A stretch of DNA of 43,947 nt from a virus, in IMG/VR virus record IMGVR_UViG_3300027743_000015, positions 1 to 43,947 of that record; one strand, 5' to 3'. Position 1 is the first letter of the stretch; each line of letters begins with the position of its first letter. Shown in pieces: positions 2,077 to 41,120 of the stretch. A model generated the notes under the pieces. That model saw only the letters and a list, made by a program, of their open reading frames with translations, searched no databases and was not told the origin of the DNA. The translations under genes and the position numbers were made by a program.

Positions 2077-2459
2077 TAGTCAATCCTACTCACTTCAAAG
2101 GAGCCATCTTCCTGCACAATGCACATCCATGCACTGTCATAGAAGTAGAGTTCTTCCATCTTACCACCACCAAGATCGTGTTCAGCCTTGAACAACGGAT
2201 GCAACGGAGGATCAGGCGGAAACTCTTTGTCGCCATCATCATACCGCAACACGTGTTGTTCGTCTTTGCGCCACCCCTTAAGAGTGTCACGCCAACCACC
2301 ACCATGCTGATAGTTGTTGTCAATCTGCTTAGCAGCAGGAGTGGGATCATAAGCATTGACGAATGCAGGGATAAGGCCCAACCACTCAAGGGTTACACCT
2401 TCTCTCTGTCCATGCTCAGTTGATTGCCAGTTAAGCATCGGGCTTAGTATCACTTGCAT
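2076..2459 (-). CDS. Conserved phage-type hypothetical protein (127 aa)
   Basis: The N-terminal pattern WLGLIPAFVNAYDPTPAAKQID followed by NYQHGGGW resembles a small family seen repeatedly as uncharacterised proteins in phages; no function is known to me. ATG at 2459 is inside the end of the MazG-like gene (29-nt overlap) and has AGAGGGAA directly upstream. The C-terminal half is rich in aromatic and acidic residues (MEELYFYDSAWMCIVQEDGSFEV). An exact palindrome copy at 2247-2258 encodes QHVL within it. Confidence 0.7.
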   Translation of the reverse strand: MQVILSPMLNWQSTEHGQREGVTLEWLGLIPAFVNAYDPTPAAKQIDNNYQHGGGWRDTLKGWRKDEQHVLRYDDGDKEFPPDPPLHPLFKAEHDLGGGKMEELYFYDSAWMCIVQEDGSFEVSRID

Positions 2460-3051
2460 TTCCCTCTAACTCCTTACGTTCTGCATCGAGATCACGACGC
2501 AATGCCTTCTCCGCAACAAATGTTGCACCGTAACGCTTCTCAAGCTTAGCATCATTGATAGTGATACACTCAGGGATGCTAGACCCAATGCTATTGAGTC
2601 CCAACTGCGTGTACCACAGCACATCACCATACTCTTCACGCAAGTTGATGTGATCGAACGCATCATCAATGTTCTTCTCACCTGCCTGCACAGATGCAAA
2701 GCCATTGATGAGTGCTTGTGCCAACTCCCCTGCTTCAGTGAGGATACCAACGATCGCGTGAAGCGTACGCTGTACATCCACTGGTATTGCTACGGGTGGA
2801 GTTTGGCCGAGGATACCCATGTGGGGTTCCCAACCATGCTTGGCTGCTATGAGAGCGAACTTAACAAGAAACTCAGTGTCAAGCTGGCCGTAGAACAGTG
2901 CCTTCTTCACTGCATCCATGATGTCAGCATCAATAGCCATTTCATCAAGGACACAAGCAAGTACCGGCCCAGGAACTAGTCCCTCGTGAAACTCCTTGCT
3001 ACAACGAGAGTCAACACGTGTTGCGTACTGTTCGGGAGTGATATAATCCAT
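2431..3051 (-). CDS. MazG-like nucleoside triphosphate pyrophosphohydrolase (206 aa)
   Basis: The all-alpha NTP pyrophosphohydrolase core occupies about residues 95-180: ILTEAGELAQAL supplies the first ExxE-type acidic pair, LREEYGDVLWY the EExxD metal-binding motif, and INDAKLEKRYG the terminal N..KL..R element typical of MazG/dCTPase proteins. These enzymes hydrolyse NTPs or dNTPs to NMP plus PPi; in phages they are thought to adjust nucleotide pools or dampen (p)ppGpp signalling. The N-terminal 90 residues are an extra domain without recognised function. The ribosome site (GAGAAAG) is weak and the start overlaps the preceding gene's stop. Confidence 0.82.
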   Translation of the reverse strand: MDYITPEQYATRVDSRCSKEFHEGLVPGPVLACVLDEMAIDADIMDAVKKALFYGQLDTEFLVKFALIAAKHGWEPHMGILGQTPPVAIPVDVQRTLHAIVGILTEAGELAQALINGFASVQAGEKNIDDAFDHINLREEYGDVLWYTQLGLNSIGSSIPECITINDAKLEKRYGATFVAEKALRRDLDAERKELEGNASDTKPDA

Positions 3052-29300: not shown

Positions 29301-30508
29301 ACCAAGAGGCTAGGGATGCACACGCTGCGAAGAACTCTCAGCAGAAGGCTTCTAAACTCTCTCTGTTCGGTGGTGCTGAACTACCACTAGACCAGTTGCA
29401 ACGCTTGTTGCTAGGCACAGTCATGCCAGTCACTGATCAAATCAGTGGCATGAACAATGGTGAATGGGATGATGACTTCATTGGTGCAATGCAGCGCATG
29501 ATTGAGGGGAATGGTCCGGCTAGGGATGAGAAGTCCACTAAAGACTCAGAGTTGAGGCTCAATGAAGCATTGAGAGCTAATTTGCCTAGCTCACTGATGG
29601 CTTTTGGTGTCAACACTAAGCCTGATGGCTCTGTAGGACTGGACTGGAAGCCAGATTATAGCAGTATACCGTTGCTGGCGGGTGTGATGGCATCGCAAGG
29701 CGTTGATCCTTCGATGTCTGCACTCACTGGTGAAATGGTAGGACCACGTACACAGCAAGTGAGTGGGTTTGACCCTGAACAAGACAGACCCAATAGCCTA
29801 TTCAGTGCTACGTACGAAACAATGATCCGTACACTGTTTGGCTCTGCTGGTGCAGGTCTTGTAGACATCGGTGATGATGCTTACAGGACACTGAACAGTG
29901 AGAACCCTGAAGATCGTAAGAGAGTTTGGGAGATTGCTGGCGATCAGTGGAAAGAGGGAGCACAGAAGGGTGCAGGAGTGTTCAAGCCTCTGTTTGGCGA
30001 TCGCGTACAAGCCAAGAGTGCTGCTGACACTAACTACGCACTGCTCAAGGATCGTGAGAAGGGAGTTGAGGCTGCTCTTGGTGCCTACACACTGAATGCG
30101 CGCACTGGTACATACAGTGGAGCTTCGACTTCGCACCGCAGTGCTGCACTAGGCAGAGAACTCGATCCCAACACTGTAGAACAGCGTCCTGAGCTTGCAG
30201 GTACGATGGCTGCTAGGATCGGTTCTTCTGCAAAGCAAGTGAAGAGCCAACTTGATAACAAGAAGAAAGAGATTAAGAATATCTCTACACAAGCGGAGTT
30301 CATCAAGGCTTCGACGAACAAGACGCAAGCGGAGAAGAACGCTCTAATCAATGACTTGACTGACGAGATAAAGATGCAGCGTATGGATATGCTGCGGATC
30401 GTGAGGGAACACGAAGAGTTCTTGTCGAAGCAGCTTGGTAGAGACTTCTCTTTCGAGGATTACAACATCGACGATTGGATGGAGCCGTTCATCCCACCGC
30501 AGGAGTGA
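26345..30508 (+). CDS. Large internal virion / ejection protein (1387 aa)
   Basis: The largest gene, last of the late operon, in the position of T7 gp16-like ejection proteins. It is mostly helical. The N-terminal 250 residues have an amphipathic Ala/Gly-rich part (AAFIRGPVGMLAGASKVGKLGKLVRG). The region about 450-900 (YAQMRAERPNYVPLQ, NPLSRLFEDYSDTIRRAETNELRRSF, TGTLRNLFSLAAAPIMDSMAAST, later NLFGPISMATIAQVGKRAREDPINFLRNMTQTGGTAAAMFYL) resembles the large polyvalent-protein domains of phage ejection proteins (LPD38-like; recalled, not searched). No transglycosylase or protease motif is seen. Its last 20 nt overlap the convergent minus-strand gene. Confidence 0.75.
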   Translation: MAAKKKPADSWYDIDWGRTAKQVVSGLHEGITANVADKDSYLPYIPALIPNVTAIPGQIKSFTSSGGKNLTKNAEKPFSGDTAIERALNDAYKQSLTAEKKGDELLGVGTPRNAVEYLARYGPAAFIRGPVGMLAGASKVGKLGKLVRGLEKIDKATPRLIRAPVKAAAEILTPFRQTGLKKAIPLNALGLGAGDIMKDRQQLDEEGHEYKGAIPAAVRAITGAEEPMSEKEAAELAELDAVMMQDAYENGEATDEDVLDWQANTPTTEAQMEAARDDMFWDKVKAGGTLLGGSLAALYAGGRFGRNVVTPQVHAREAAINNPDNYGKFKDPAEYGEHAPIDTETNRLPKQPIDRGEQLTSTGQEPKFIGTKFETSDVGAVDKTIGRVFEKTRPIVSMASRFMGRDYAKKLGFHLDRITNSSIQARFTDWVKTGRLPGSERKTAPLGAWARQYAKELSPEEQQRVGSALVGASSLDDYRRTGNQSSLFKELNGAPVTPQQIEQLVADVSQDPKLGKYYHQIQKFYDEKLQYEVERGLMTPAEYAQMRAERPNYVPLQSNLHQEAEYSPFSSRYSANENNLKARAEQTHTGVPGDLGVVNPLSRLFEDYSDTIRRAETNELRRSFLEDMAASGARNAKGDLIVRRIRPDATGVNVHEVNTPTGPIKYDVLDSELAKSLHLSPRNAIKGMEEARQLYQNMTTGTTGTLRNLFSLAAAPIMDSMAASTLAGKSHGVGLANRLFVGGHIGGIRAAGDMMLGEMATKMRMRLIADNSWLRDAVNSVSGGRGAEALTNMLEGAYKNSTLAFMDQAGITSKAAWGASDPTHVMEGMQGVVPEYARTQAQRVIDDIDTSFGENGGIGLMRGALLKSKNRWVQAKTLPLMRQYAGLLEAMHNGARYSAVRANKGKVRDLDEFISDMRRLSSDPSIHGSGKAAEALTSANLFGPISMATIAQVGKRAREDPINFLRNMTQTGGTAAAMFYLSQYYDQEARDAHAAKNSQQKASKLSLFGGAELPLDQLQRLLLGTVMPVTDQISGMNNGEWDDDFIGAMQRMIEGNGPARDEKSTKDSELRLNEALRANLPSSLMAFGVNTKPDGSVGLDWKPDYSSIPLLAGVMASQGVDPSMSALTGEMVGPRTQQVSGFDPEQDRPNSLFSATYETMIRTLFGSAGAGLVDIGDDAYRTLNSENPEDRKRVWEIAGDQWKEGAQKGAGVFKPLFGDRVQAKSAADTNYALLKDREKGVEAALGAYTLNARTGTYSGASTSHRSAALGRELDPNTVEQRPELAGTMAARIGSSAKQVKSQLDNKKKEIKNISTQAEFIKASTNKTQAEKNALINDLTDEIKMQRMDMLRIVREHEEFLSKQLGRDFSFEDYNIDDWMEPFIPPQE

Positions 30509-31751
30509 TAGCCTGGAGAATGGTATCGAGAGCGTTGCTGGACACTAAGCCTTGCTTCGCTCTCCATATAGTGACTGGTCTACCGCGTCCTACGGTTACG
30601 TTCTCAAACTTCTGTATCATCTGAAGCTCGTGCATCACATCGAGTGCTACTCGGGTGTGTTCTGCGTCCATAAATCTTTGTACTGCTTTACTGAGTTCGG
30701 AGTGTTTAATTCCCCCGATCCCTGCCGCAAGCAGCTTGTCTCGTAAGGCGTCAACTCCCAAGACAAGACGGGAGTTCGCTCCTGTACCTTCAAATATGGC
30801 GGCACCATCTTCACGAGTTTCAGTAACAACTTTAATCGCTGTCGTGATGTGATTAGCTTGGATCTCCCAAGTGTCGTCACTAACGCATAGCAAAGCAGCC
30901 ACACGCAAGATGTGGCTATCCTCGCGACTCTGGAAAGAAGCTCTGTAAGGATCACGCTTTATCTCCCTGTTCTTGTACCAAGATTTGAACTTGGACATTG
31001 CTCCTTCACTGAGCGCAATAGTTGGATAGCGCTTCGCTCCCTCTTGCACTCTCTGCAAGTGATCTGCAAGGGATTGTTTGAGTTCCAGGTCTGGCTTTGT
31101 CGGCCAAGGCGCTGTGCGTTTAGGTTTCTCGGATACGACGAACACAACTCTTGATGTGAAGCCTCCCTCGATAACATCAGGATTAACGGCCCTAAGAAGC
31201 CATGAGGGTGTCGATGCAGAAAGGAAGTTAACGTGTACGTCCCGAAGCACTGTGCTACCACGTAGAAGGGTTCCACCCCCAACCCTGAGTGTAGGGCAGT
31301 CGTAGAGATCAGTAAGCAAGGTGGGCATAGTTTCGACATACTTCTCTTTCCCTAGAAACTTCACCATTTCATCTATCGCAATGCTTGCACGCGCACTACC
31401 AAACTCAATAGACTGCAACGCGAGGTCAAACTCAAGCTTCTCTGGAGTGATCTTACTCTCTATCAGTTGGTTGCGCTCGTTGCACATAGTACGGATGAAG
31501 CTGACTGCCCTTCTGACTGCTGTACTCTTGCGTGTAACGCCCGACTCCGCGACCAAGACACAGTAAAGATTAAGGTAAACAGGAGCAGAAGGCCGATCAA
31601 CAGCAATATCTCTTCCGAGGGCAACTGAAATGCACCAGAGCGCGGTCCAGAAGTCGTAGGCGTAGGGGGTTTCGGAGTTTTCCGAAAAGGCAAGATATTG
31701 TCCGACAAAGCTATCCTCCCTTGCTAACTTCTTGTAGTTGATCCTACTCAT
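30489..31751 (-). CDS. DUF3987-like P-loop ATPase, putative replicative helicase (420 aa)
   Basis: The P-loop SGVTRKST (about residues 70-77) and Walker B ASIAIDEM (about 122-129) are followed by VNFLSASTPSWLLRAV and GGFTSRVVFVVSE, the sensor and arginine-finger region of DUF3987 proteins, which couple to phage or plasmid replication as helicase-like ATPases. The C-terminal 120 residues hold a winged-helix-like part (LAAGIGGIKHSELSKAVQRFMDAEHTRVALDVMHELQMIQKFENV). No separate DnaB helicase or primase is seen, so this may be the fork helicase. ATG 31751 and an adjacent GTG at 31754 are both possible, with AAGGAA upstream inside the overlapping previous gene. Confidence 0.75.
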   Translation of the reverse strand: MSRINYKKLAREDSFVGQYLAFSENSETPYAYDFWTALWCISVALGRDIAVDRPSAPVYLNLYCVLVAESGVTRKSTAVRRAVSFIRTMCNERNQLIESKITPEKLEFDLALQSIEFGSARASIAIDEMVKFLGKEKYVETMPTLLTDLYDCPTLRVGGGTLLRGSTVLRDVHVNFLSASTPSWLLRAVNPDVIEGGFTSRVVFVVSEKPKRTAPWPTKPDLELKQSLADHLQRVQEGAKRYPTIALSEGAMSKFKSWYKNREIKRDPYRASFQSREDSHILRVAALLCVSDDTWEIQANHITTAIKVVTETREDGAAIFEGTGANSRLVLGVDALRDKLLAAGIGGIKHSELSKAVQRFMDAEHTRVALDVMHELQMIQKFENVTVGRGRPVTIWRAKQGLVSSNALDTILQAITPAVG

Positions 31752-31902
31752 CACTCATCATTTCCTTGTAAGTCGCAGTCTTTTTACAACGCTTACAAGT
31801 CACCAGTCGTGGTACAGCGGTGAGTGGAGCCTTTACGCGAGCATTACAAGCTGCAAACTTCTCATCGAAGCCGCGCATTTCATCTGCAAAGTGAACAGCC
31901 AT
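31744..31902 (-). CDS. Small zinc-ribbon-like protein (52 aa)
   Basis: ATG at 31902 follows AGGACGAAAACA; a longer frame has no ribosome site. The product (MAVHFADEMRGFDEKFAACN...) has a Cys near residue 19 and a CKRC pair (VTCKRCKKTATYKE), as in tiny phage zinc-ribbon proteins in which a first Cys or Cys/His pair and a final 'TCKRC' bind metal. The N-terminal half site seems incomplete (only one Cys, with a His at position 4). Role unknown; it is usually found near replication genes. Confidence 0.65.
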   Translation of the reverse strand: MAVHFADEMRGFDEKFAACNARVKAPLTAVPRLVTCKRCKKTATYKEMMSDE

Positions 31903-32337: not shown

Positions 32338-32784
32338 TTACAGCTTCTTGATCTCAGCCTTTTCCTTGTTCTCATTCTCTTTGCCAAGATCCAAGTCAGT
32401 CACTGTTCCTGACTCGTCTCCCGCTGAACCTTCTTCAGTAGGGCTAACTACTTCAGGCGGTTCAGGTGAAGGGTTGTTATCCTCACCATTCACTTCGCCA
32501 CCGTCACGGCCATGCTGACCGGGGTTATTGGCACCTCCAGTAGAAGAGGTGTTGTCACCAAACACGTGACCCTGAGTTACGTCACTAAGATACTGATTAG
32601 CACCTTCGATCGACTCTTCAGAGCACATCGCGTTGACTTCTTCATCAGACCGATTTGCGCGTTCTTCTGCATCCATCGGATCAGAGCGTAGATCACGAGT
32701 TTCTTTCTTGTGATCGCTGTCGTCAACACGCTTGCTGTCCTTCGTTTTGGGACCAGCTACTTTCGTATCTTCTACTTTGGTCAT
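32338..32784 (-). CDS. Highly charged, probably disordered protein (148 aa)
   Basis: ATG at 32784 overlaps the DNA polymerase stop (ATGA), with AAAGGT upstream. The product is almost entirely Asp/Glu/Lys/Ser/Asn/Gly/Pro (KTKDSKRVDDSDHKKETRDL, NGEDNNPSPEPPEVV), with no hydrophobic core except a short helix around residues 60-80. It may be a DNA-mimic or a flexible partner of the replisome; function is unknown. Coupling to the polymerase suggests a replication link. Confidence 0.6.
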   Translation of the reverse strand: MTKVEDTKVAGPKTKDSKRVDDSDHKKETRDLRSDPMDAEERANRSDEEVNAMCSEESIEGANQYLSDVTQGHVFGDNTSSTGGANNPGQHGRDGGEVNGEDNNPSPEPPEVVSPTEEGSAGDESGTVTDLDLGKENENKEKAEIKKL

Positions 32785-35261
32785 GCTTCTACCTTTCTCA
32801 GTGTGCTCCACCGATGAACGCCCTTCTCATCGGGTACAGAACACTTCAAATCGCACGGAATTATCAACTCCCTTATTTGACCGTCCATGCCTTCGATCAA
32901 CAAGGGTTCGAGAGCGTGTTTCTTCATCACTCTGCGAACGCGTTCACCCAAACCCCGCTCATTAAGAGCAACAAGGGCATCGTGGATATTGAGTGCAATT
33001 CGTGCACCATGTGTAGGCCAATCAGGATCATTGTGACACTGGTAAATAACGCGAGCAACCTTGTCCCCGATAGTAGACTGAGGATAGAAGGCAATAACAG
33101 GCTCCAGAGCATCGTCACTGAACTTCTCCTGCAAGATCCATCTACGACCGTAGGCATTGTAGATACGACGCTTCTCCTGGACCTGCTTAATCTGCCATTC
33201 CCACCACAGTTGTATCTCTGGGTTGGTCTTATGATACTGGTGCCACAAGTATTCTGCAACCGAGTACGAGGTTTGCAGAGTAGTAGCTAAGCGATCCGGC
33301 ATCATTCTGTAATTCAACGCGTGTCGGCAACGCTTAGCGATGTAACGAATTGAGAATGGAGCAAATGGCCCTTCTTCTGCACGATCCGTGGTCGGTACAT
33401 CTTCGTACGGCACGTTGAACATGATTGAAGCTAGGGCTCTATGAGTATCAACGTTTGGATCACTAAATTGTTCCATCCATGACGGGATTACGGCACGATA
33501 ACCGACGACTCTTGCTTCTGCTTGGCTGAGGTCGAAATAGTTAAACTCGTATCCGTCGTCTGCAATAAACATGTTATGTGCGCGTTCCGGCTGGTTTTGA
33601 AGGTTAGTTCCAGTCCCCCAACCTGTACTTGCAGAGGAAAGCCTACCGGGGGCGCTACTAACACCAGTTTGTTTATATTCACATCTAATTCTGCAATCTT
33701 CATCGACCGACATCTCCGCATAGGTGCTAGAGAACTTCTGTTCTACTGCTAGATTATCAATATGAAGTAGTAGACTTCTACAGTCGTCAGGAGTACGAGG
33801 ATGATCGCGCATACGCCTGCGGTTGTCTTTATCAGTAGCAACTCCTCGCCCCACAAGACGTAATCTTTTGAAGAAGAGTTCCGCCATTTGTTTAGGGCTA
33901 TTAGGATTAGGCCGAAATTCAGGATCACCTGTACAATCAGCAACCATCCTAAAGTATTCATCCCGCATCCTTCCAATGGTCACTTTCATGTCAGCAGCGA
34001 TCTGATCCTTCAACTCTACGTCGATCTTCACACCGTGAACAGTCATGTCAACCAAGTGAGGTTGCAGGAACATTACATGGTTGAAGAAGAAGTCGCTAAG
34101 CTTCTGCTCCTCCAACTCACGCAACATATGTTGCTGACACGCAAGCATGATGCAGCAGTCCTTGACGTTGTATACCCACTCAGCGTCAATGTCACCGACT
34201 TCCTTCCAAATCTTCCCCTCGTCCTTGTAGAAGGGGTGGGTAGTGTATTGCGTGGTCAGGAAGCCCAACGAATGTGGCATACGTGGATACAAGGTATGGT
34301 GTGCTAACATCGTGTCGAACCAAATACTGGCGAACCTCAGTCGATCCAGGAAATATGTCCACGACGAGTCGTACATCCCATTTTGAGTGACCAATCGGAC
34401 CTTTGGATCTGCTACTAGCTTCTGAAGCCTCAACCATATCTGAGCCTCCTGTTCTACTGTCCATCGGTTAGCGTCTTTGGTACGAAAGTTAATACAACAG
34501 CCCTCATGCGGCGAGTTGGCAAGCCCGACACAGATGGTTTCTCCTGAAGAAGTTTCGATATCAATGCCAACTGGCTCCCCCTCACTCTGCATCCTGTCGA
34601 TCCAAGCAATCGCTTCTTCAAATGTCGGATTGATGTGGGCCTTGACCTCATGTTCCTTAAACTCCCCGGTGATAACCTGATTGAGCCTGTAGCAGTCGAA
34701 CTTGAACATCACTTCGGCTTTAGCCTCACGCAACACGTGTGCTGGATTGTACATCACTACGACTTTGGCGTCCCGGCTGCGTGTCTCTCCTTCTCCAAAA
34801 AGACTAGTGAGTTGCACGTCGAACACCGACCCTCGATAATTAGTGATACCTCTAAGTCCTGTAATTGCGGAGAGAGCATAGTTACCAAGGCAGACAACAT
34901 ACTTGAGATTTGGGAGTTGAGCGAGTTCCCACAGCAGGATCGAGGTGTAGTGTGAAACTTCCCCATCGCCAATCTTCTCCTTCATGTTCGCCATGTTGAC
35001 TGAGAGAAGTTGGCGCTTGATGACATTACTCACATACACCTTCTGGCGTGATAAGCCATACTTGCGTAAGCTGTCCCAGAGGTACTTACCACTGCTACCA
35101 CACAGCGGCATCTTCATTACGCGCTCTCGCTCACCAGGAGCCTCACCAATGATAGCTACCTCTGCACCGAACATTCCATCACAGCCGCAATCAACCTCCA
35201 ATCCCAGAGCTTTGGCTCGAACCATTATCTCTCTGTTCATTTCGGCTATTGTCTGCGCCAT
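32781..35261 (-). CDS. UDG family 4-like / DNA polymerase I fusion (826 aa)
   Basis: The N-terminal 200 residues resemble a family 4 uracil-DNA glycosylase: GEAPGERE (39-46), a GSSGKYLWDSLRKYGLSRQKVYVSNVIK segment, and NPAHVLR (172-178), where family members have HPaxlLR; the Cys set for the Fe-S cluster is not complete. A 3'-5' exonuclease follows with DIET (234-237), QNGMYDSS and YNVKD (364-368). The polymerase has motif A DLSQAEARV (577-585), motif B around RYIAKRCRHALNYR (YR for YG) and motif C IHDAL (HDA for HDE). It is the replicative polymerase with proofreading. ATG 35261 follows GGAGAAGATCA, better than the ATG at 35285. Confidence 0.88.
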   Translation of the reverse strand: MAQTIAEMNREIMVRAKALGLEVDCGCDGMFGAEVAIIGEAPGERERVMKMPLCGSSGKYLWDSLRKYGLSRQKVYVSNVIKRQLLSVNMANMKEKIGDGEVSHYTSILLWELAQLPNLKYVVCLGNYALSAITGLRGITNYRGSVFDVQLTSLFGEGETRSRDAKVVVMYNPAHVLREAKAEVMFKFDCYRLNQVITGEFKEHEVKAHINPTFEEAIAWIDRMQSEGEPVGIDIETSSGETICVGLANSPHEGCCINFRTKDANRWTVEQEAQIWLRLQKLVADPKVRLVTQNGMYDSSWTYFLDRLRFASIWFDTMLAHHTLYPRMPHSLGFLTTQYTTHPFYKDEGKIWKEVGDIDAEWVYNVKDCCIMLACQQHMLRELEEQKLSDFFFNHVMFLQPHLVDMTVHGVKIDVELKDQIAADMKVTIGRMRDEYFRMVADCTGDPEFRPNPNSPKQMAELFFKRLRLVGRGVATDKDNRRRMRDHPRTPDDCRSLLLHIDNLAVEQKFSSTYAEMSVDEDCRIRCEYKQTGVSSAPGRLSSASTGWGTGTNLQNQPERAHNMFIADDGYEFNYFDLSQAEARVVGYRAVIPSWMEQFSDPNVDTHRALASIMFNVPYEDVPTTDRAEEGPFAPFSIRYIAKRCRHALNYRMMPDRLATTLQTSYSVAEYLWHQYHKTNPEIQLWWEWQIKQVQEKRRIYNAYGRRWILQEKFSDDALEPVIAFYPQSTIGDKVARVIYQCHNDPDWPTHGARIALNIHDALVALNERGLGERVRRVMKKHALEPLLIEGMDGQIRELIIPCDLKCSVPDEKGVHRWSTLRKVEA

Positions 35262-35439
35262 TGATCTTCTCCAAGACTTCATCATACGAGCCTAGTACTT
35301 GATATTCCTTGCCATCATCCATAATGATGATCGTAGCAGGAGGAGAGTAGTTTATAGAAGAGCATATAGTGGACACACAGTCAGGATTGATAGCAACTTT
35401 GCTACCTTTATGGTGCCATAGACTGAATTGAGCAAGCAT
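35191..35439 (-). CDS. FlbD-like small protein (82 aa)
   Basis: ATG at 35439 overlaps the kinase stop (TGATG). The pattern KVAINPDCVSTI, then SPPATIIIMDDGKEYQVLGSYDEVLEKI resembles the FlbD family of about 60-aa single-domain beta proteins (start strand, 'N...I..I', 'T.I...dG....V..s..EV...I'). The phage role is unknown; the C-terminal tail is disordered and overlaps the polymerase start by about 70 nt. Inferred homology only. Confidence 0.55.
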   Translation of the reverse strand: MLAQFSLWHHKGSKVAINPDCVSTICSSINYSPPATIIIMDDGKEYQVLGSYDEVLEKINGADNSRNEQRDNGSSQSSGIGG

Positions 35440-36086
35440 CACGCGTTTTCCTTCTCTTCGATGTCTAACCAGACCTTCACAACACCCTGACAGAGTATTT
35501 TGAAGATCTCTTTGTCACTACGACCACCAATCCTGTTAGGGAGCTTCTTCACAGTGACTTTTGGGTACTTCTCAAGCACTTCTTCGCCAACGTAGTAGCG
35601 AATGTCGTTATGAGTGTCGAACGTAACACCTGTTGCGTGTATTTCTACGATCAATACGTTCTTTTCGCCTACGTGTTCGATGATAGGTACCAAATCAGCC
35701 AAACGACCGCCATCGCTACACACCACGACACCAGCAAAGGAATTACGCACGATCCTCTTCCGCATGATGTACCCGAGCGCTTCTGGACCATGTAATTTCT
35801 CCAGTGCATTGAACATTTCGATGTACGCTTGACGCGGAGACAAGCCTAAGAAGTCACCAGTCGGGTTATTCTTGTCCTTACGACCATCTTCATCGTAGAA
35901 CTCCCAACCGTGGAACGCACTGTAGAGCGCATGAGCACCCTTCTTGAGTGGTTCACTGAACTTCATGTGCGTTGGCTTCATCCACGGAGCGTTTATCTGA
36001 ATGTACGAGCGTACTACATCCGACGCAAAGTCTTTTCCACTGTTAGGAGGGCCATTGAATATGATAATCTTCTGATGAGCACTCAC
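35439..36086 (-). CDS. Putative deoxynucleoside monophosphate kinase (215 aa)
   Basis: The P-loop IIIFNGPPNSGKDFAS (about 7-22), the LIKF-like contact THMKFSEPLKKGAHALY, the SPRQAYIEMFNALEKLHGPEALGYIM lid region and VVVCSDGGRLADLVPII (Walker B-like) are as in phage dNMP kinases. It phosphorylates dNMPs to dNDPs for DNA synthesis. Start GTG 36086 follows a G-run two bases after the helicase stop. The gene is coupled to the FlbD-like gene and polymerase. Confidence 0.8.
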   Translation of the reverse strand: MSAHQKIIIFNGPPNSGKDFASDVVRSYIQINAPWMKPTHMKFSEPLKKGAHALYSAFHGWEFYDEDGRKDKNNPTGDFLGLSPRQAYIEMFNALEKLHGPEALGYIMRKRIVRNSFAGVVVCSDGGRLADLVPIIEHVGEKNVLIVEIHATGVTFDTHNDIRYYVGEEVLEKYPKVTVKKLPNRIGGRSDKEIFKILCQGVVKVWLDIEEKENA

Positions 36087-36088
36087 TG

Positions 36089-37396
36089 TTACCCCCTTTT
36101 GTTCAATGAGATCGACAAAGACCGCTGATCGGTGATCAGATGCACGTGTTCACGCCCACGACTGGTTGCAGTGTAGAAATTGCGTCTGTTCTGCATGTAT
36201 CCAGTGCTTTTGTTCAACACGTAACACACGTTGTCATATTCTGAGCCCTGGGACTTGTGCGTAGTGATTGCATAGCCCAAATCTACGTCTTTTCGAGGGT
36301 CAATCTCGACAATCTTACCGTAACGGTTCATTACCAGCATTACTGGAGGGATCACTTGCTCACGGTCGCCTAGATCGAGCACTAATTCACCATCATCGGT
36401 GATCTCAATGATCTTTCCACTCTCACCGTTGAACACTTCCAACTCGTACATATTCCGAGTGATAATTACCTTATCACCGACGTACATACGCATCAGTCCA
36501 CCCTTCTCGTCACCTTCCCCCTTCACCCACTTATGACGCGGGATCATACAAGCGGGATCAAGACGACTGTGGAAGAGAGATTGGATCATCTGGTTGAGTT
36601 TAACCGTACCGACCCACGTTGTATTCTGCGGAGTGAGGATTTGGTTTCGTGGATCTGTGAAGTCGATCCCAAGAGCCATTTGTACATGGATATAGTCTCT
36701 AAGAGCATCCACCGGGGTGTCGGTAAAGTGCATTGTCCACTGGTCATTCCGTGTGGGCATTCTTCCTTGTAACACTTGTTGCAAGTTGAGCAGAATACCA
36801 CTGTCCTTCCCTTGGCGATGTATCGTCTCAAGTCTGACTGAAGGAAACTTGTCGAGTAGTTGAATGAACGAGGACGGTAAGGCTTCAAGACGCTTATCCT
36901 CTTCAATAGGTGGAAGCTGGTTGTTGTCACCGAACACACGAATGCACGCCCCAGGACGGAGCGCATCAAAGAGCGATCGGTGCAACTCATTGTTGACCAT
37001 CGCGTACTCGTCTACGAACAAGACATCGAGATCCAAGGGATTTTGTCTCGTGCGACGAGGATAAGAGAACTGTGCAGGTTTGCCAGTCTTGGGATCAGGA
37101 TCACCGGGGTGAGTGTATTCCAAGAGGCGGTGATTAGTCATGGCTTCAATGCCAGTGACTTCGTAGATGCGCTTCGCTGCTTTACCAGTAGGCGCAGCAA
37201 GACCGACTTGATAGCCGGCCTCTTGTATCTCGGTGTATGCTTTCTTAAGGATTGTTGTTTTACCTGATCCAGCAGGCCCGGTAACGCCGGCAACACGTGT
37301 TGTGAAGTTGCAGCACAATGCTACAGCTTCATCCTGCTTTGGATCAAGCGTGAATGAGGACTCGTCCTCCATTACTGTTAAGCTGTTCGTGTCCAT
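36089..37396 (-). CDS. RecD-like SF1B DNA helicase (435 aa)
   Basis: Helicase motifs in order: Q-motif-like TLDPKQDEAVALC, motif I GPAGSGKTT (40-48), Ia AAPTGKAAKR, II LFVDEYAM (126-133), III VFGDNNQLPPIE, IV RLETIHRQ, and C-terminal V/VI elements DLGYAITTHKSQGSEYDNV and YTATSRGREHVHLIT. This is a 5'-3' translocating RecD2/Dda-class helicase. It may assist replication initiation or recombination. ATG 37396 after GAGGACACGT is chosen over an upstream TTG. An exact palindrome (37291-37302) sits within the N-terminal coding part. Confidence 0.9.
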   Translation of the reverse strand: MDTNSLTVMEDESSFTLDPKQDEAVALCCNFTTRVAGVTGPAGSGKTTILKKAYTEIQEAGYQVGLAAPTGKAAKRIYEVTGIEAMTNHRLLEYTHPGDPDPKTGKPAQFSYPRRTRQNPLDLDVLFVDEYAMVNNELHRSLFDALRPGACIRVFGDNNQLPPIEEDKRLEALPSSFIQLLDKFPSVRLETIHRQGKDSGILLNLQQVLQGRMPTRNDQWTMHFTDTPVDALRDYIHVQMALGIDFTDPRNQILTPQNTTWVGTVKLNQMIQSLFHSRLDPACMIPRHKWVKGEGDEKGGLMRMYVGDKVIITRNMYELEVFNGESGKIIEITDDGELVLDLGDREQVIPPVMLVMNRYGKIVEIDPRKDVDLGYAITTHKSQGSEYDNVCYVLNKSTGYMQNRRNFYTATSRGREHVHLITDQRSLSISLNKRG

Positions 37397-37583
37397 ACGT
37401 GTCCTCAAGACGAGCTAGAGTTGCACGGTCACGGTCGCGCAAACGACCGAGTGCAAGAGCGTCGTCAGTTGCACGAAGCGCCCATTCGACAATACCGCGT
37501 TCACCGTCACGCGCAGCACACTGTGCAACACGCTCGATACGAACTCGGAGAGCCTTATCAACGCGATCAAGCATCTGGAACAT
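37344..37583 (-). CDS. Hypothetical protein (79 aa)
   Basis: ATG 37583 (or GTG 37586) follows AAGGAGG, one of the best ribosome sites of the region. It overlaps both neighbours: 17 nt with the upstream gene and 53 nt with the helicase. The product is an Arg/Glu/Asp-rich helix (MFQMLDRVDKALRVRIERVAQ..., ALGRLRDRDRATLARLEDTY), likely a coiled-coil dimer. No family is recognised. Confidence 0.6.
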   Translation of the reverse strand: MFQMLDRVDKALRVRIERVAQCAARDGERGIVEWALRATDDALALGRLRDRDRATLARLEDTYGHEQLNSNGGRVLIHA

Positions 37584-38277: not shown

Positions 38278-38811
38278 CTAGGCCGCAGTGACCTTGGCAA
38301 CATTGGCGCGCACTTCACCTTCATAGGTGTCATGCGAAATCGTAACAGTAGCAGTGCGACCGATCCAATCATTGAGATCAATCTTATTGCCAGCAGGAGC
38401 ACCGATTGCTTCGATGAACTTCCGCAGACGGTGACGACCACTCGGAGTGTTCTGCAAGCTCACGCGGTTGAACGTAAGCAGCATTCCATCAGGCTCACCC
38501 TCGGTGTAATCCGCAGGATAAGCGTCAGCACTGATGAAGAACTGAACGCTGGCATACGGATTGCCCGTCTGATTAGCGTGCTTCTGCACAGCACCGCGCA
38601 CTTCTGCGGGGTAGTCACCAACAGGAAGCGGAACTGGAGCTTCAGCTTCCGAAATGTCCTCGTCGAACTCAATGACCGACGGTAGTGCGGTATCACTCAT
38701 ATCTTTTTCCTTAGTCTTAGTTGCAACTGAGGCTTCCTTAGCTCCATCGCTCGCCTCACTACGTGGAGCACCCTTGCCCTTACTGCGGGACTTGGATTTT
38801 GTTTCTGCCAT
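38278..38811 (-). CDS. Single-stranded DNA-binding protein, DUF669-like (177 aa)
   Basis: An N-terminal 50 residues of Lys/Ser/Glu-rich linker precede an OB-like region: VPLPVGDYPAEVRGAVQKHANQTGNPYASVQFFIS, then GMLLTFNRVSLQNTPSGRHRLRKFIEAIGAP and DLNDWIGRTATVTISHDTYEGEVRANVAKV. This order (P.GdY.a.v, K.G.p...v.f, GR...V.i....YeG...n.V) is that of phage DUF669 proteins, which act as SSBs beside Sak4/RecA-type recombinases. GGGAAGG precedes ATG 38811, and the gene overlaps the Sak4-like gene by 32 nt. Confidence 0.8.
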   Translation of the reverse strand: MAETKSKSRSKGKGAPRSEASDGAKEASVATKTKEKDMSDTALPSVIEFDEDISEAEAPVPLPVGDYPAEVRGAVQKHANQTGNPYASVQFFISADAYPADYTEGEPDGMLLTFNRVSLQNTPSGRHRLRKFIEAIGAPAGNKIDLNDWIGRTATVTISHDTYEGEVRANVAKVTAA

Positions 38812-39604
38812 TACCTTCCCATTCCTTTATAAAAGCTGACAACGAATGTTGTCCATACACATCAGTGTACGGATCGTACTTCAACACAAACTCAATCTTC
38901 GCACGAGTGTCAAACATTCTCGACTTCATAGGTTTTCGCATTCTCGCAGGACGTAACGCAATCTTCCTATGCTTACCGTCGTCGGACATGAACCATACTT
39001 CGCTGAGCTGGAGCGAAACCTGACCGCCCAACTTACCCCCCAACAACATTGTAATATGTAGAATGTTTCCCTCTTTGTCTTTAACTCCTGCGTCGTCCTC
39101 ATGCGTAATGAAAATGACATTGACCTTCATTCTCTTCGTCAGTCTGAGAATACCACTCATCATACGCAAGGTGAGTGCATTACGCGCACCATACGCACCG
39201 GGAGAGGGACGCTCAATAGTTGCGCCACTTGTGACACTGATACCCTTCTCTACAGCAAGTGTAGTGAACGCAGTAACACTATCCACAATAACCGTTGTGA
39301 TCTCTAGCTCTTCAATGATCTTACTCAATCGGTATTTCTTCTCACCGATCGGTAGTAGAGGATCATCATCAACCTTGAATGTATCTACGATACCATACCG
39401 TTCACCACTGAGATCAATGAGAACAATATCGTCCCTAGCACCCAGAGACACAGGACCGTCAGGATCAAAATTGATAAAGAGTTTTCGGCCAGGCGCACTA
39501 GCAGCAAGAGTAGTCTTACCGCATCCCGCAAGGCCCCATAACAGAAGCGAGAAGCGTTGCTCAGTCTCTGCGAGTGACTTAACATCTATACCATCTATTT
39601 GCAT
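38780..39604 (-). CDS. Sak4-like RecA-family recombinase (274 aa)
   Basis: A P-loop protein of the AAA_24/Sak4 type: LLLWGLAGCGKTTLA (20-34), acidic FDPDG after strand 2, Walker B TTVIVDSVTA (103-112), a helical insertion, and the strand VNVIFITHED (161-170). Sak4 proteins anneal or pair single strands and often work with an SSB; the next gene is a DUF669-like SSB and the preceding one an exonuclease, giving a three-gene recombination set. ATG 39604 follows GGAGAGTACTC. Confidence 0.8.
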   Translation of the reverse strand: MQIDGIDVKSLAETEQRFSLLLWGLAGCGKTTLAASAPGRKLFINFDPDGPVSLGARDDIVLIDLSGERYGIVDTFKVDDDPLLPIGEKKYRLSKIIEELEITTVIVDSVTAFTTLAVEKGISVTSGATIERPSPGAYGARNALTLRMMSGILRLTKRMKVNVIFITHEDDAGVKDKEGNILHITMLLGGKLGGQVSLQLSEVWFMSDDGKHRKIALRPARMRKPMKSRMFDTRAKIEFVLKYDPYTDVYGQHSLSAFIKEWEGNGRNKIQVPQ

Positions 39605-39733: not shown

Positions 39734-40825
39734 CTAGTCGCCTCCTTGAACCTCATGGAGAGGGTTCCACTCATCCGTGTACATTTCTTCGAGGATGAGT
39801 CGTTGTTCTTCGTCTGTGGCGTCACAGAAGGGGATGAGGGCGCAGGGCCTGAAGTATCGGTTGCACGAGTGCGTGTATTTGGGGGCATGAATTGGATCCT
39901 CCTTAAATGCCAACTCAAGTTGTACTGTATGAAAGAACCAGTCGAACCACCGTTCAAAGTGGTGCGTGTATCGTGGTACAACTTCACGAACAATACCGCC
40001 GAAGTCATAGTTCTTCGGTAGTGGTATACTCATTCCAAACACTTCAGCTTTGTCTATTGCTGCTCCTGCCCAGACCCCGAGTGCGAGACAGTATCCGGTG
40101 ATCTGCGAAGAGAGAAGAAACGACTGTTGCCATGCTTCGTCAAGTCGAGAAGCGGTCTTGTTTTCGTGTAGGTACAACTCATTATTTCGTTGATGCAACC
40201 CATCTGCTTTTCCGATAAACCTATATCGGTATGTATCTCCACTCTCCAACAAGAATGACAACGTAACATCAAAAGGGAGTTCAATTCCAACGTCGGTTGC
40301 AGGATCATCTGGACATCTGATCCACACTGGCATTCTATTCCAGTCCCATCTATCGAGATACGCAATGCAAGCTTCCTCTAAGTTAGTGTAAGTTCTTCGC
40401 TTGTCTCTTGGGTCGTCGAAGTATCCAGTCGTTTCCAAAGCCATGAGGCAGAATTGAAGGGATTGAATGCGTGGATCCTCATTGGATCTGACACTTCCCA
40501 ACATTTGTTGGTATCGTGTATCTCCAAATAGCCTCTTCCCGTGAACATCAGCAAGATCGGCTCTGTCTTGGTATGTACGTAGCTGCCACAAGCGCACCGC
40601 TGCGAAGAAGTCATGTGCTGCACTCCCACATTCGAGGGCCATCTGTCTTGTACCACCTTGCGACGCTGGTAAGCTCATTGTCTTGTGCATACCGTAACGC
40701 ACTATACCCCAAGTTGGACAAGTGTTGATCGCTACAAGTTTAGTGTTGTCATACGCAGGTAGCGTGAAGTCTGTAGTCAACTCAACGCTAACAGACTTAA
40801 TGCGTGGTCTTTCCATCGGGTTCAT
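39734..40825 (-). CDS. Cas4/RecB-like PD-(D/E)XK exonuclease with Fe-S cysteines (363 aa)
   Basis: The nuclease core reads FIGKADGL (Asp about 208) then ELYLHENKTAS (E and K of the E-x-K motif about 221-223), with a downstream helix QQSFLLSSQITGYCLAL equivalent to the QhxxY motif. One Cys at about 36 (INTCPTW) and three at about 321, 328 and 334 (CNRYFRPCALIPFC) match the split four-Cys iron-sulfur site of Cas4/AddB-type nucleases. It would resect DNA ends for the Sak4/SSB pair. ATG 40825 follows AAGGAG and lies inside the preceding gene's end. Confidence 0.82.
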   Translation of the reverse strand: MNPMERPRIKSVSVELTTDFTLPAYDNTKLVAINTCPTWGIVRYGMHKTMSLPASQGGTRQMALECGSAAHDFFAAVRLWQLRTYQDRADLADVHGKRLFGDTRYQQMLGSVRSNEDPRIQSLQFCLMALETTGYFDDPRDKRRTYTNLEEACIAYLDRWDWNRMPVWIRCPDDPATDVGIELPFDVTLSFLLESGDTYRYRFIGKADGLHQRNNELYLHENKTASRLDEAWQQSFLLSSQITGYCLALGVWAGAAIDKAEVFGMSIPLPKNYDFGGIVREVVPRYTHHFERWFDWFFHTVQLELAFKEDPIHAPKYTHSCNRYFRPCALIPFCDATDEEQRLILEEMYTDEWNPLHEVQGGD

Positions 40826-41120
40826 CGGTAGGTGCTCCTTCGAGTTCATCACCCATCGCCCGCGCCATTTGATCCGTGCGTTCCTTTAGGTTGCCTGCAA
40901 CATCAGTGAATGACTGCATGATGTCAGTCATTGTATCTACCATCTGTGCTAGTGAAGCTAGATGCAATACATTACCGTGATTGATCTCTGCTAACTGACA
41001 CATCACTGCCAGCACTTCAGGATCAACCTTACCTTCTAACTTCGTACGCACATCGCGTCCACGCATCACGCCAGTTGCATCACGTGACTTGAGGAACACT
41101 GGTGCTACTTGTTTAACCAT
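40797..41120 (-). CDS. Hypothetical helical protein (107 aa)
   Basis: ATG 41120 follows GAAGGAG. The product begins MVKQVAPVFLKSRDATGVMRG and is helical, with a membrane-free coiled region (LASLAQMVDTMTDIMQSFTDVAGNLKERTDQMARAM) and an acidic tail. No family is recognised. It overlaps the exonuclease start by 29 nt, so the two are co-translated. Confidence 0.65.
   Translation of the reverse strand: MVKQVAPVFLKSRDATGVMRGRDVRTKLEGKVDPEVLAVMCQLAEINHGNVLHLASLAQMVDTMTDIMQSFTDVAGNLKERTDQMARAMGDELEGAPTDEPDGKTTH

Follow-up and report, generated by a model that had tools for sequence, protein, structure and literature searches.

Known fusions and related systems

Fusion of a uracil-DNA glycosylase (UDG) domain to a family-A DNA polymerase (PolA) is an established phage architecture. 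It has been described for the jumbo phage PaBG (PMC7412058), and SPO1-like phages also carry UDG-PolA fusions. The phiLo polymerase has been solved (PDB 9qhs, an entry described as bound to modified template), and the phiLo gene phiLo_158 encodes a canonical UDG with GEAPG, PF, TN and HPSFVLR, its cysteines present. In all three systems an N-terminal UDG fold sits on a phage family-A polymerase.

In the family-4 enzyme Tth UDGa, k2 falls by more than three orders of magnitude on H155S substitution while Km moves very little, the cost of F54A is about 17-fold and that of E47A about 100-fold, and N80 reads uracil N3 and O4; the motif-2 His is absent from UDG families 2 and 6, which are active all the same (PMC5387724). 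UdgX is defined by GEQPG and a KRRIH loop with a nucleophilic His, and its motif-1 Glu can activate water (PMC10359453). On the polymerase side, viral PolAs have been sorted by residue 762 into Phe, Tyr and Leu types (PMC6302109), and one survey of viral PolAs retained only F, L or Y at this position (PMC9069017).

Possible functional analogues lie further away. Archaeal family-B polymerases possess a uracil read-ahead pocket, and uracil recognition coupled to synthesis is the function proposed below for the present protein; pocket and polymerase family are unrelated, and the likeness is one of analogy only. Vaccinia D4, a family-1 UDG, likewise brings a UDG fold into the replicase of a virus, where it acts as a processivity factor, but it is a separate polypeptide from a different UDG family and retains glycosylase activity. 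Against this background the architecture of the protein analysed here is already known; the new part is an altered active site fixed in a polymerase clade with His762 and Arg767.

Organization and predicted structure of the fusion protein

The locus lies in a 43,947-base virus record, IMGVR_UViG_3300027743_000015; this whole stretch is called the window. An earlier sequence-only reading had placed a UDG-polymerase fusion at 32781-35261, and both the open reading frame and three Pfam domains above their cutoffs bear this out. Judged from relatives, which begin at the second Met, the real start is probably Met9 at 35261 (MAQTIAE...), the same position as the end coordinate of that reading.

32781..35285, minus strand: UDG / 3'-5' exonuclease / family-A DNA polymerase fusion, 834 codons from the ATG at 35285
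34671..35198, minus strand: UDG-like domain, residues 30-205, with family-4 UDG and UdgX as closest folds
34101..34613, minus strand: 3'-5' proofreading exonuclease domain, residues 225-395, catalytic D242/E244/D306/Y372/D376 intact
32796..34088, minus strand: family-A polymerase domain, residues 400-830, from Pfam and the model

The Pfam matches are to UDG (PF03167, residues 40-189; 62.8 bits against a cutoff of 24.3), DNA_pol_A_exo1 (36.3 against 23.6) and DNA_pol_A (92.2 against 34.3), and the whole protein matches phrog_17 (DNA polymerase). An AlphaFold2 model of the fusion, built from 77 sequences, has a mean pLDDT of 92.3 and a pTM of 0.89, and in fold comparison its polymerase/exonuclease body resembles the Bst, Klenow and Taq large fragments. 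The UDG domain modelled in isolation (pLDDT 93) matches the folds of family-4 UDG and UdgX (Foldseek, E 6.7e-14), with TDG structures as remoter matches.

Active-site residues of the UDG-like domain

Residues of the UDG-like domain were compared with those of Tth UDGa and counted across 77 IMG/VR relatives. The motifs and positions concerned are the following, the single residues being placed by alignment.

35130..35147, minus strand: UDG motif 1 GEAPGE, residues 47-52; E48 corresponds to Tth E41 and E54, just after the motif, to Tth E47
35103..35105, minus strand: Leu61, at the position of the uracil-stacking Phe54 of Tth UDGa
35025..35027, minus strand: Asn87, corresponding to Tth Asn80, which reads uracil N3/O4
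34728..34748, minus strand: UDG motif 2 NPAHVLR, residues 180-186, with Asn180 at the catalytic Tth His155

The changes and the retained residues are both shared across the relatives. Asn stands at position 180 in 72 of the 77, the four relatives with Glu and the one with Ser there counting against the explanation favoured below, and the stacking position is Leu in 63, Met in 11 and Phe in 3, thus Leu or Met in 74/77. The Asn89 equivalent of motif 3 is not kept, and Ala49 occupies the place of the water-positioning motif-1 Asn of MUG-type enzymes. Retained are the equivalents of Glu41 (75/77), Glu47 (77/77) and the uracil-reading Asn80 (75/77), together with the Pro and the Arg of motif 2 (R186, 73/77). 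The cysteine cluster, which the sequence-only reading had called incomplete, has gone further than stated: of the four Fe-S ligand positions, defined by a four-cysteine relative (L158), not one has stayed Cys throughout the clade. Since the leaving-group and stacking residues are swapped while the reading residues are kept, the sequence predicts binding of uracil with poor excision.

In the clade the majority residue accounts for 93% on average at six pocket positions, whereas random sets of positions drawn from this domain average 58% (P = 0.0006). When the window is compared with its closest relatives, in pairs with unsaturated dS, the UDG domain has a dN/dS of 0.07-0.10, about equal to that of the exonuclease and polymerase, as expected under purifying selection. 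The fused copy is also the only PF03167 match in each of 20/20 clade contigs. A conserved pocket under purifying selection argues that the domain does something pocket-dependent.

By family, the domain belongs to the UDG superfamily on both its PF03167 score and its fold, and its profile matches are all to family 4 or UdgX. It falls short of the family-4 model (TIGR00758, 67.9 bits against a cutoff of 125.3), and the catalytic His of HPxxLLR is replaced by Asn180. With the family-4 UDGs (Tth UDGa, T. maritima TM0511 and S. tokodaii UDG) it shares the fold, GEAPGE, the uracil-reading Asn and the Pro and Arg of motif 2, but differs in His155 to Asn, Phe54 to Leu, loss of Asn89, absence of Fe-S ligands and fusion to a polymerase. 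UdgX of M. smegmatis, a cross-linking UDG, has the family-4-like fold in common with the domain and a similar Foldseek score. An identity with UdgX was nevertheless rejected: the domain has GEAPG rather than GEQPG, without the motif-1 Q, and NVIKRQLLS rather than the KRRIH loop, without a nucleophilic His, whereas UdgX retains HPS in motif 2. Membership in family 2 (MUG/TDG) fails as well, with Ala49 at the Asn of GINPG and no match of the domain to a MUG profile in the profile search.

Polymerase and exonuclease motifs

Residue numbers of the polymerase were mapped by alignment to E. coli PolA, giving F762 to H655, Y766 to Y659, G767 to R660, D882 to D769 and E883 to A770.

33516..33533, minus strand: motif A, with D585 and E590 (D705 and E710) intact, by alignment
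33303..33347, minus strand: motif B/O-helix, R647...K651...H655...Y659 R660 M661, with His at 762 and Arg at 767
32976..32984, minus strand: motif C, HDA (E. coli HDE), residues 768-770, with Asp769 catalytic, by alignment

The catalytic equipment is that of a family-A PolA with 3'-5' exonuclease. The exonuclease motifs, already taken to be intact in the sequence-only reading, have D355/E357/D424/Y497/D501 conserved (DxE, D and YxxxD), and the polymerase keeps R668/D705/E710/R754/K758/Q849/H881 together with Y766 and D882; the catalytic residues of both domains are invariant across the 76-77 relatives examined. Gly767 and Glu883, which are typical of the family and not strictly defining, are replaced by Arg660 and Ala770. 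Among the IMG/VR relatives, 767 is Arg in 75/76 and 883 is Ala in 73/76, and 762 is His in 76/76, outside the F, Y and L groups of viral PolAs.

GEAPGE, NPAHVLR, NYR (residues 658-660) and HDA had all been placed correctly by the sequence-only reading, as alignment to PolAs and Tth UDGa confirms, and they are clade-wide. That reading had overlooked His762, the Leu at the stacking Phe, a further substitution of N845 to Ala (Ala732) and the sharing of the changes across the clade. Its emphasis on altered polymerase motifs is borne out only in part. The polymerase features that define the clade are Arg767 and His762 (the latter shared with the sister clades), which may bear on fidelity. HDA was rejected as a special feature: Gordonia, Microbacterium and Pseudomonas phages have HDA too, SPO1-type and Microcystis phages have HDS, and one or the other is widespread among phage PolAs. 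Residues other than Gly at 767 are also found elsewhere, as YQ in SPO1-type polymerases, L or D in the sister clades and YR in Vibrio phage VS-ABTNL-3. Among the described fusions, SPO1 thus resembles the window in lacking Gly767 but has HPNT, an eroded motif 1 and Phe762, phiLo differs in its canonical UDG motifs and cysteines, and PaBG is a jumbo phage, unlike the window's clade, known to be alike through its fusion architecture.

His762 is more remarkable than either of these. Because the survey cited above admitted only F, L or Y at 762, a His762 group was left out of it, and no paper naming a His762 type was found in a search limited to an open-access library.

Relatives and history of the clade

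Scanning viral contigs in IMG/VR with a family profile recovered 434 relatives, including the 77 examined, and all named substitutions are common to a large clade rather than peculiar to the window genome. In a tree built on exonuclease and polymerase columns with the trait columns removed, the window's clade (53 rows) falls on one stem branch (SH-aLRT 100, length 1.36); the tree program flagged long branches, so the branching order among the sister clades should be read with caution. Tree and alignment show the changes of the two enzyme parts fixed together on this stem. The clade is a large uncultured group of tailed phages with genomes of about 44 kb. A scan of 84,980 prokaryote genomes yielded a single close relative, on a MAG contig of 44.5 kb, plus two distant relatives, a near-absence consistent with virulent phages.

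Two sister clades share His762 and mostly retain the canonical pocket E-E-F-N-H-R, with NYL, NYD or NYG and mostly HDS in the polymerase. Their members include Microcystis phage Mel-JY34, Manatee Spring phage ctMlz233 and IMG/VR relatives, which resemble the window in the UDG-exo-pol order, the lack of an Fe-S cluster and similar replication neighbours, but whose UDG mostly retains PF...N...HPxxxLR and whose polymerase has NYL/NYG with HDS. In one sister clade the pocket has decayed repeatedly (EDLSSR, EDLSPM, EDLTNK), whereas by its residues the pocket of the window's clade has settled into a new stable form. Motif 1 is missing from the UDG domains of Gordonia and Microbacterium phages.

Some phages depart from the single-chain arrangement. 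In Caulobacter phage Kuura (L024, 5950-9354) the fusion is naturally split: the UDG with the pre-polymerase region is encoded by one ORF (gp29) and the polymerase by another (gp26), and two small ORFs separate them. In Vibrio phage VS-ABTNL-3 (L023, 5956-9090), which also has NYR in motif B, the palm region is interrupted by a 184-aa ORF that matches nothing in Pfam, probably part of an intron or an insertion of that kind.

Replication block and gene neighbours

The polymerase gene stands in a replication and recombination block, with the following genes around it.

30489..31754, minus strand: primase/helicase-like protein, a conserved neighbour in 75/96 clade loci
35439..36086, minus strand: deoxynucleoside monophosphate (dNMP) kinase-like gene (phrog_139), upstream of the polymerase
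36089..37408, minus strand: RecD2/Dda-like SF1 helicase, a conserved neighbour in 91/96 clade loci
38278-38811, minus strand: SSB-like
38780-39604, minus strand: Sak4-like annealing ATPase
39734-40852, minus strand: Cas4/PDDEXK nuclease

Clade-wide, the block consists of the Cas4-like nuclease, Sak4-like ATPase, SSB-like protein, RecD2/Dda helicase, sometimes the dNMP kinase (detected near the polymerase in 37/96 loci), polymerase and primase. This conserved block and the invariant catalytic residues argue for a replicative polymerase. Two other genes of the window were observed: an 83-aa ORF at 35191-35442 (minus strand), overlapping the polymerase start just upstream, matches FlbD (PF06289) slightly above cutoff, which is odd in a phage replication block, and a MazG-like pyrophosphatase gene (phrog_229) lies at 2431-3051 (minus strand).

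Genes for modified or uracil-containing DNA were sought in 20 clade contigs, some of them possibly incomplete: thymidylate synthase/hydroxymethylase, ThyX and dCMP deaminase were each absent from all 20, and dUTPase occurred in one. The contig with the dUTPase (L035, IMGVR_UViG_3300049049_000041) has Tyr at Asn87 and Lys at Arg186, a suggestive single case. dUTPase as a partner of pocket loss was set aside, the numbers (1/20 and 1/24) being too small. Another record points to a candidate modified-base phage: in MW202455.1 (L107, 819-6265) the UDG-PolA has canonical HPAA and still carries a KC motif, and its neighbours are annotated as pyrimidine hmase synthase, thymidylate synthase and FAD-dependent thymidylate synthase.

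Possible roles of the UDG-like domain

Most likely the protein is a working replicative polymerase, with a UDG-like domain that binds uracil and excises it very poorly. The replacement of His155 by Asn in 72/77 relatives, set beside the lost catalysis and kept binding of Tth H155S, favours the uracil-binding reading. The ancestor would have been a family-4 UDG already fused to the polymerase. By the clade stem the Fe-S cluster would have been lost, the motif-2 His replaced by Asn and the stacking Phe by Leu, with the uracil-reading and DNA-holding residues kept; on the same stem the polymerase would have gained Arg767 and Ala883, His762 being older and common to the sister clades. On this view the domain most likely binds uracil, whether in the template or in the nascent strand, and hardly or never excises it, which would link uracil recognition to a polymerase whose proofreading is intact; the phage could then pause at uracil, or keep it out, and leave its replicating genome uncut. 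Of all this the sequences show the fusion, the substitutions, their joint fixation and the purifying selection on the domain, whereas lost excision, kept binding and the link to synthesis are inferred. Taken whole, this explanation, a replicative PolA of uncultured phages with a uracil-binding, barely or non-excising UDG-like domain, is given an even chance of being right. The pocket could also have been retuned to another base instead of uracil.

The rivals differ in what they make of the pocket. Because families 2 and 6 are active without the His, Asn180 is no proof of lost excision, and the main rival is a domain that is still a glycosylase but retuned, excising slowly or from a different substrate through the motif-2 Asn with Glu48 activating water. 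Motif 2 of the MUG/TDG family reads NPS, TDG structures are among the remoter fold matches, the equivalents of Glu41 and Glu47 and the motif-2 Pro and Arg are kept, and UdgX shows that a motif-1 Glu can activate water. The rival is nonetheless rather unlikely, as the MUG-type motif-1 Asn is Ala49, the motif-3 Asn is lost, profile matches point to family 4 or UdgX and never to MUG, and the family-4 H155S enzyme is nearly dead. It is distinctly unlikely that the fold is a mere structural or processivity element with an idle pocket. Vaccinia D4 does double as a processivity factor (PMC10253040), sister phages have lost their UDG active sites independently and kept the domain, and Gordonia and Microbacterium phages no longer have motif 1; but the sister lineages lose several residues together, whereas the pocket of the window's clade is selectively conserved. 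Of the two roles offered by the sequence-only reading, uracil sensing is thus the best supported, and a purely structural one fits less well.

That reading had also suggested uracil-containing or modified DNA, with both enzyme halves adapted to it. The idea was reasonable, since UDG-PolA fusions are indeed found in phages with modified DNA: SPO1 has a dUMP hydroxymethylase gene near its UDG-PolA gene, and the solved phiLo polymerase is described as bound to a modified template. Thymidylate-synthase-like genes also adjoin the UDG-PolA gene of the Manatee Spring myovirus, and a dNMP kinase adjoins the polymerase gene here. With the kinase near the polymerase in a minority of loci and the expected genes all but missing from the 20 clade contigs, such a genome is unsupported and highly improbable. 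Relatives with the same residues and ordinary activity had been named as what would speak against the reading as a whole; the shared residues are found throughout the clade, and no enzyme assay of any clade member was found.

Implications

In its broadest form, the uracil-binding reading would make the protein a glycosylase turned non-cutting uracil reader within a replicative PolA, a family-A counterpart of archaeal read-ahead in a His762/Arg767 type that the filter of one viral PolA survey had removed; in this form it is doubtful. The glycosylase active site was changed once and then kept by selection inside a replicase, which offers a natural test of whether polymerase-fused UDG folds read uracil rather than remove it. 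The clade also adds a His762 group to the viral PolA types, and because position 762 has been tied to speed, fidelity and lifestyle in the studies that defined those types, the His type is directly testable.
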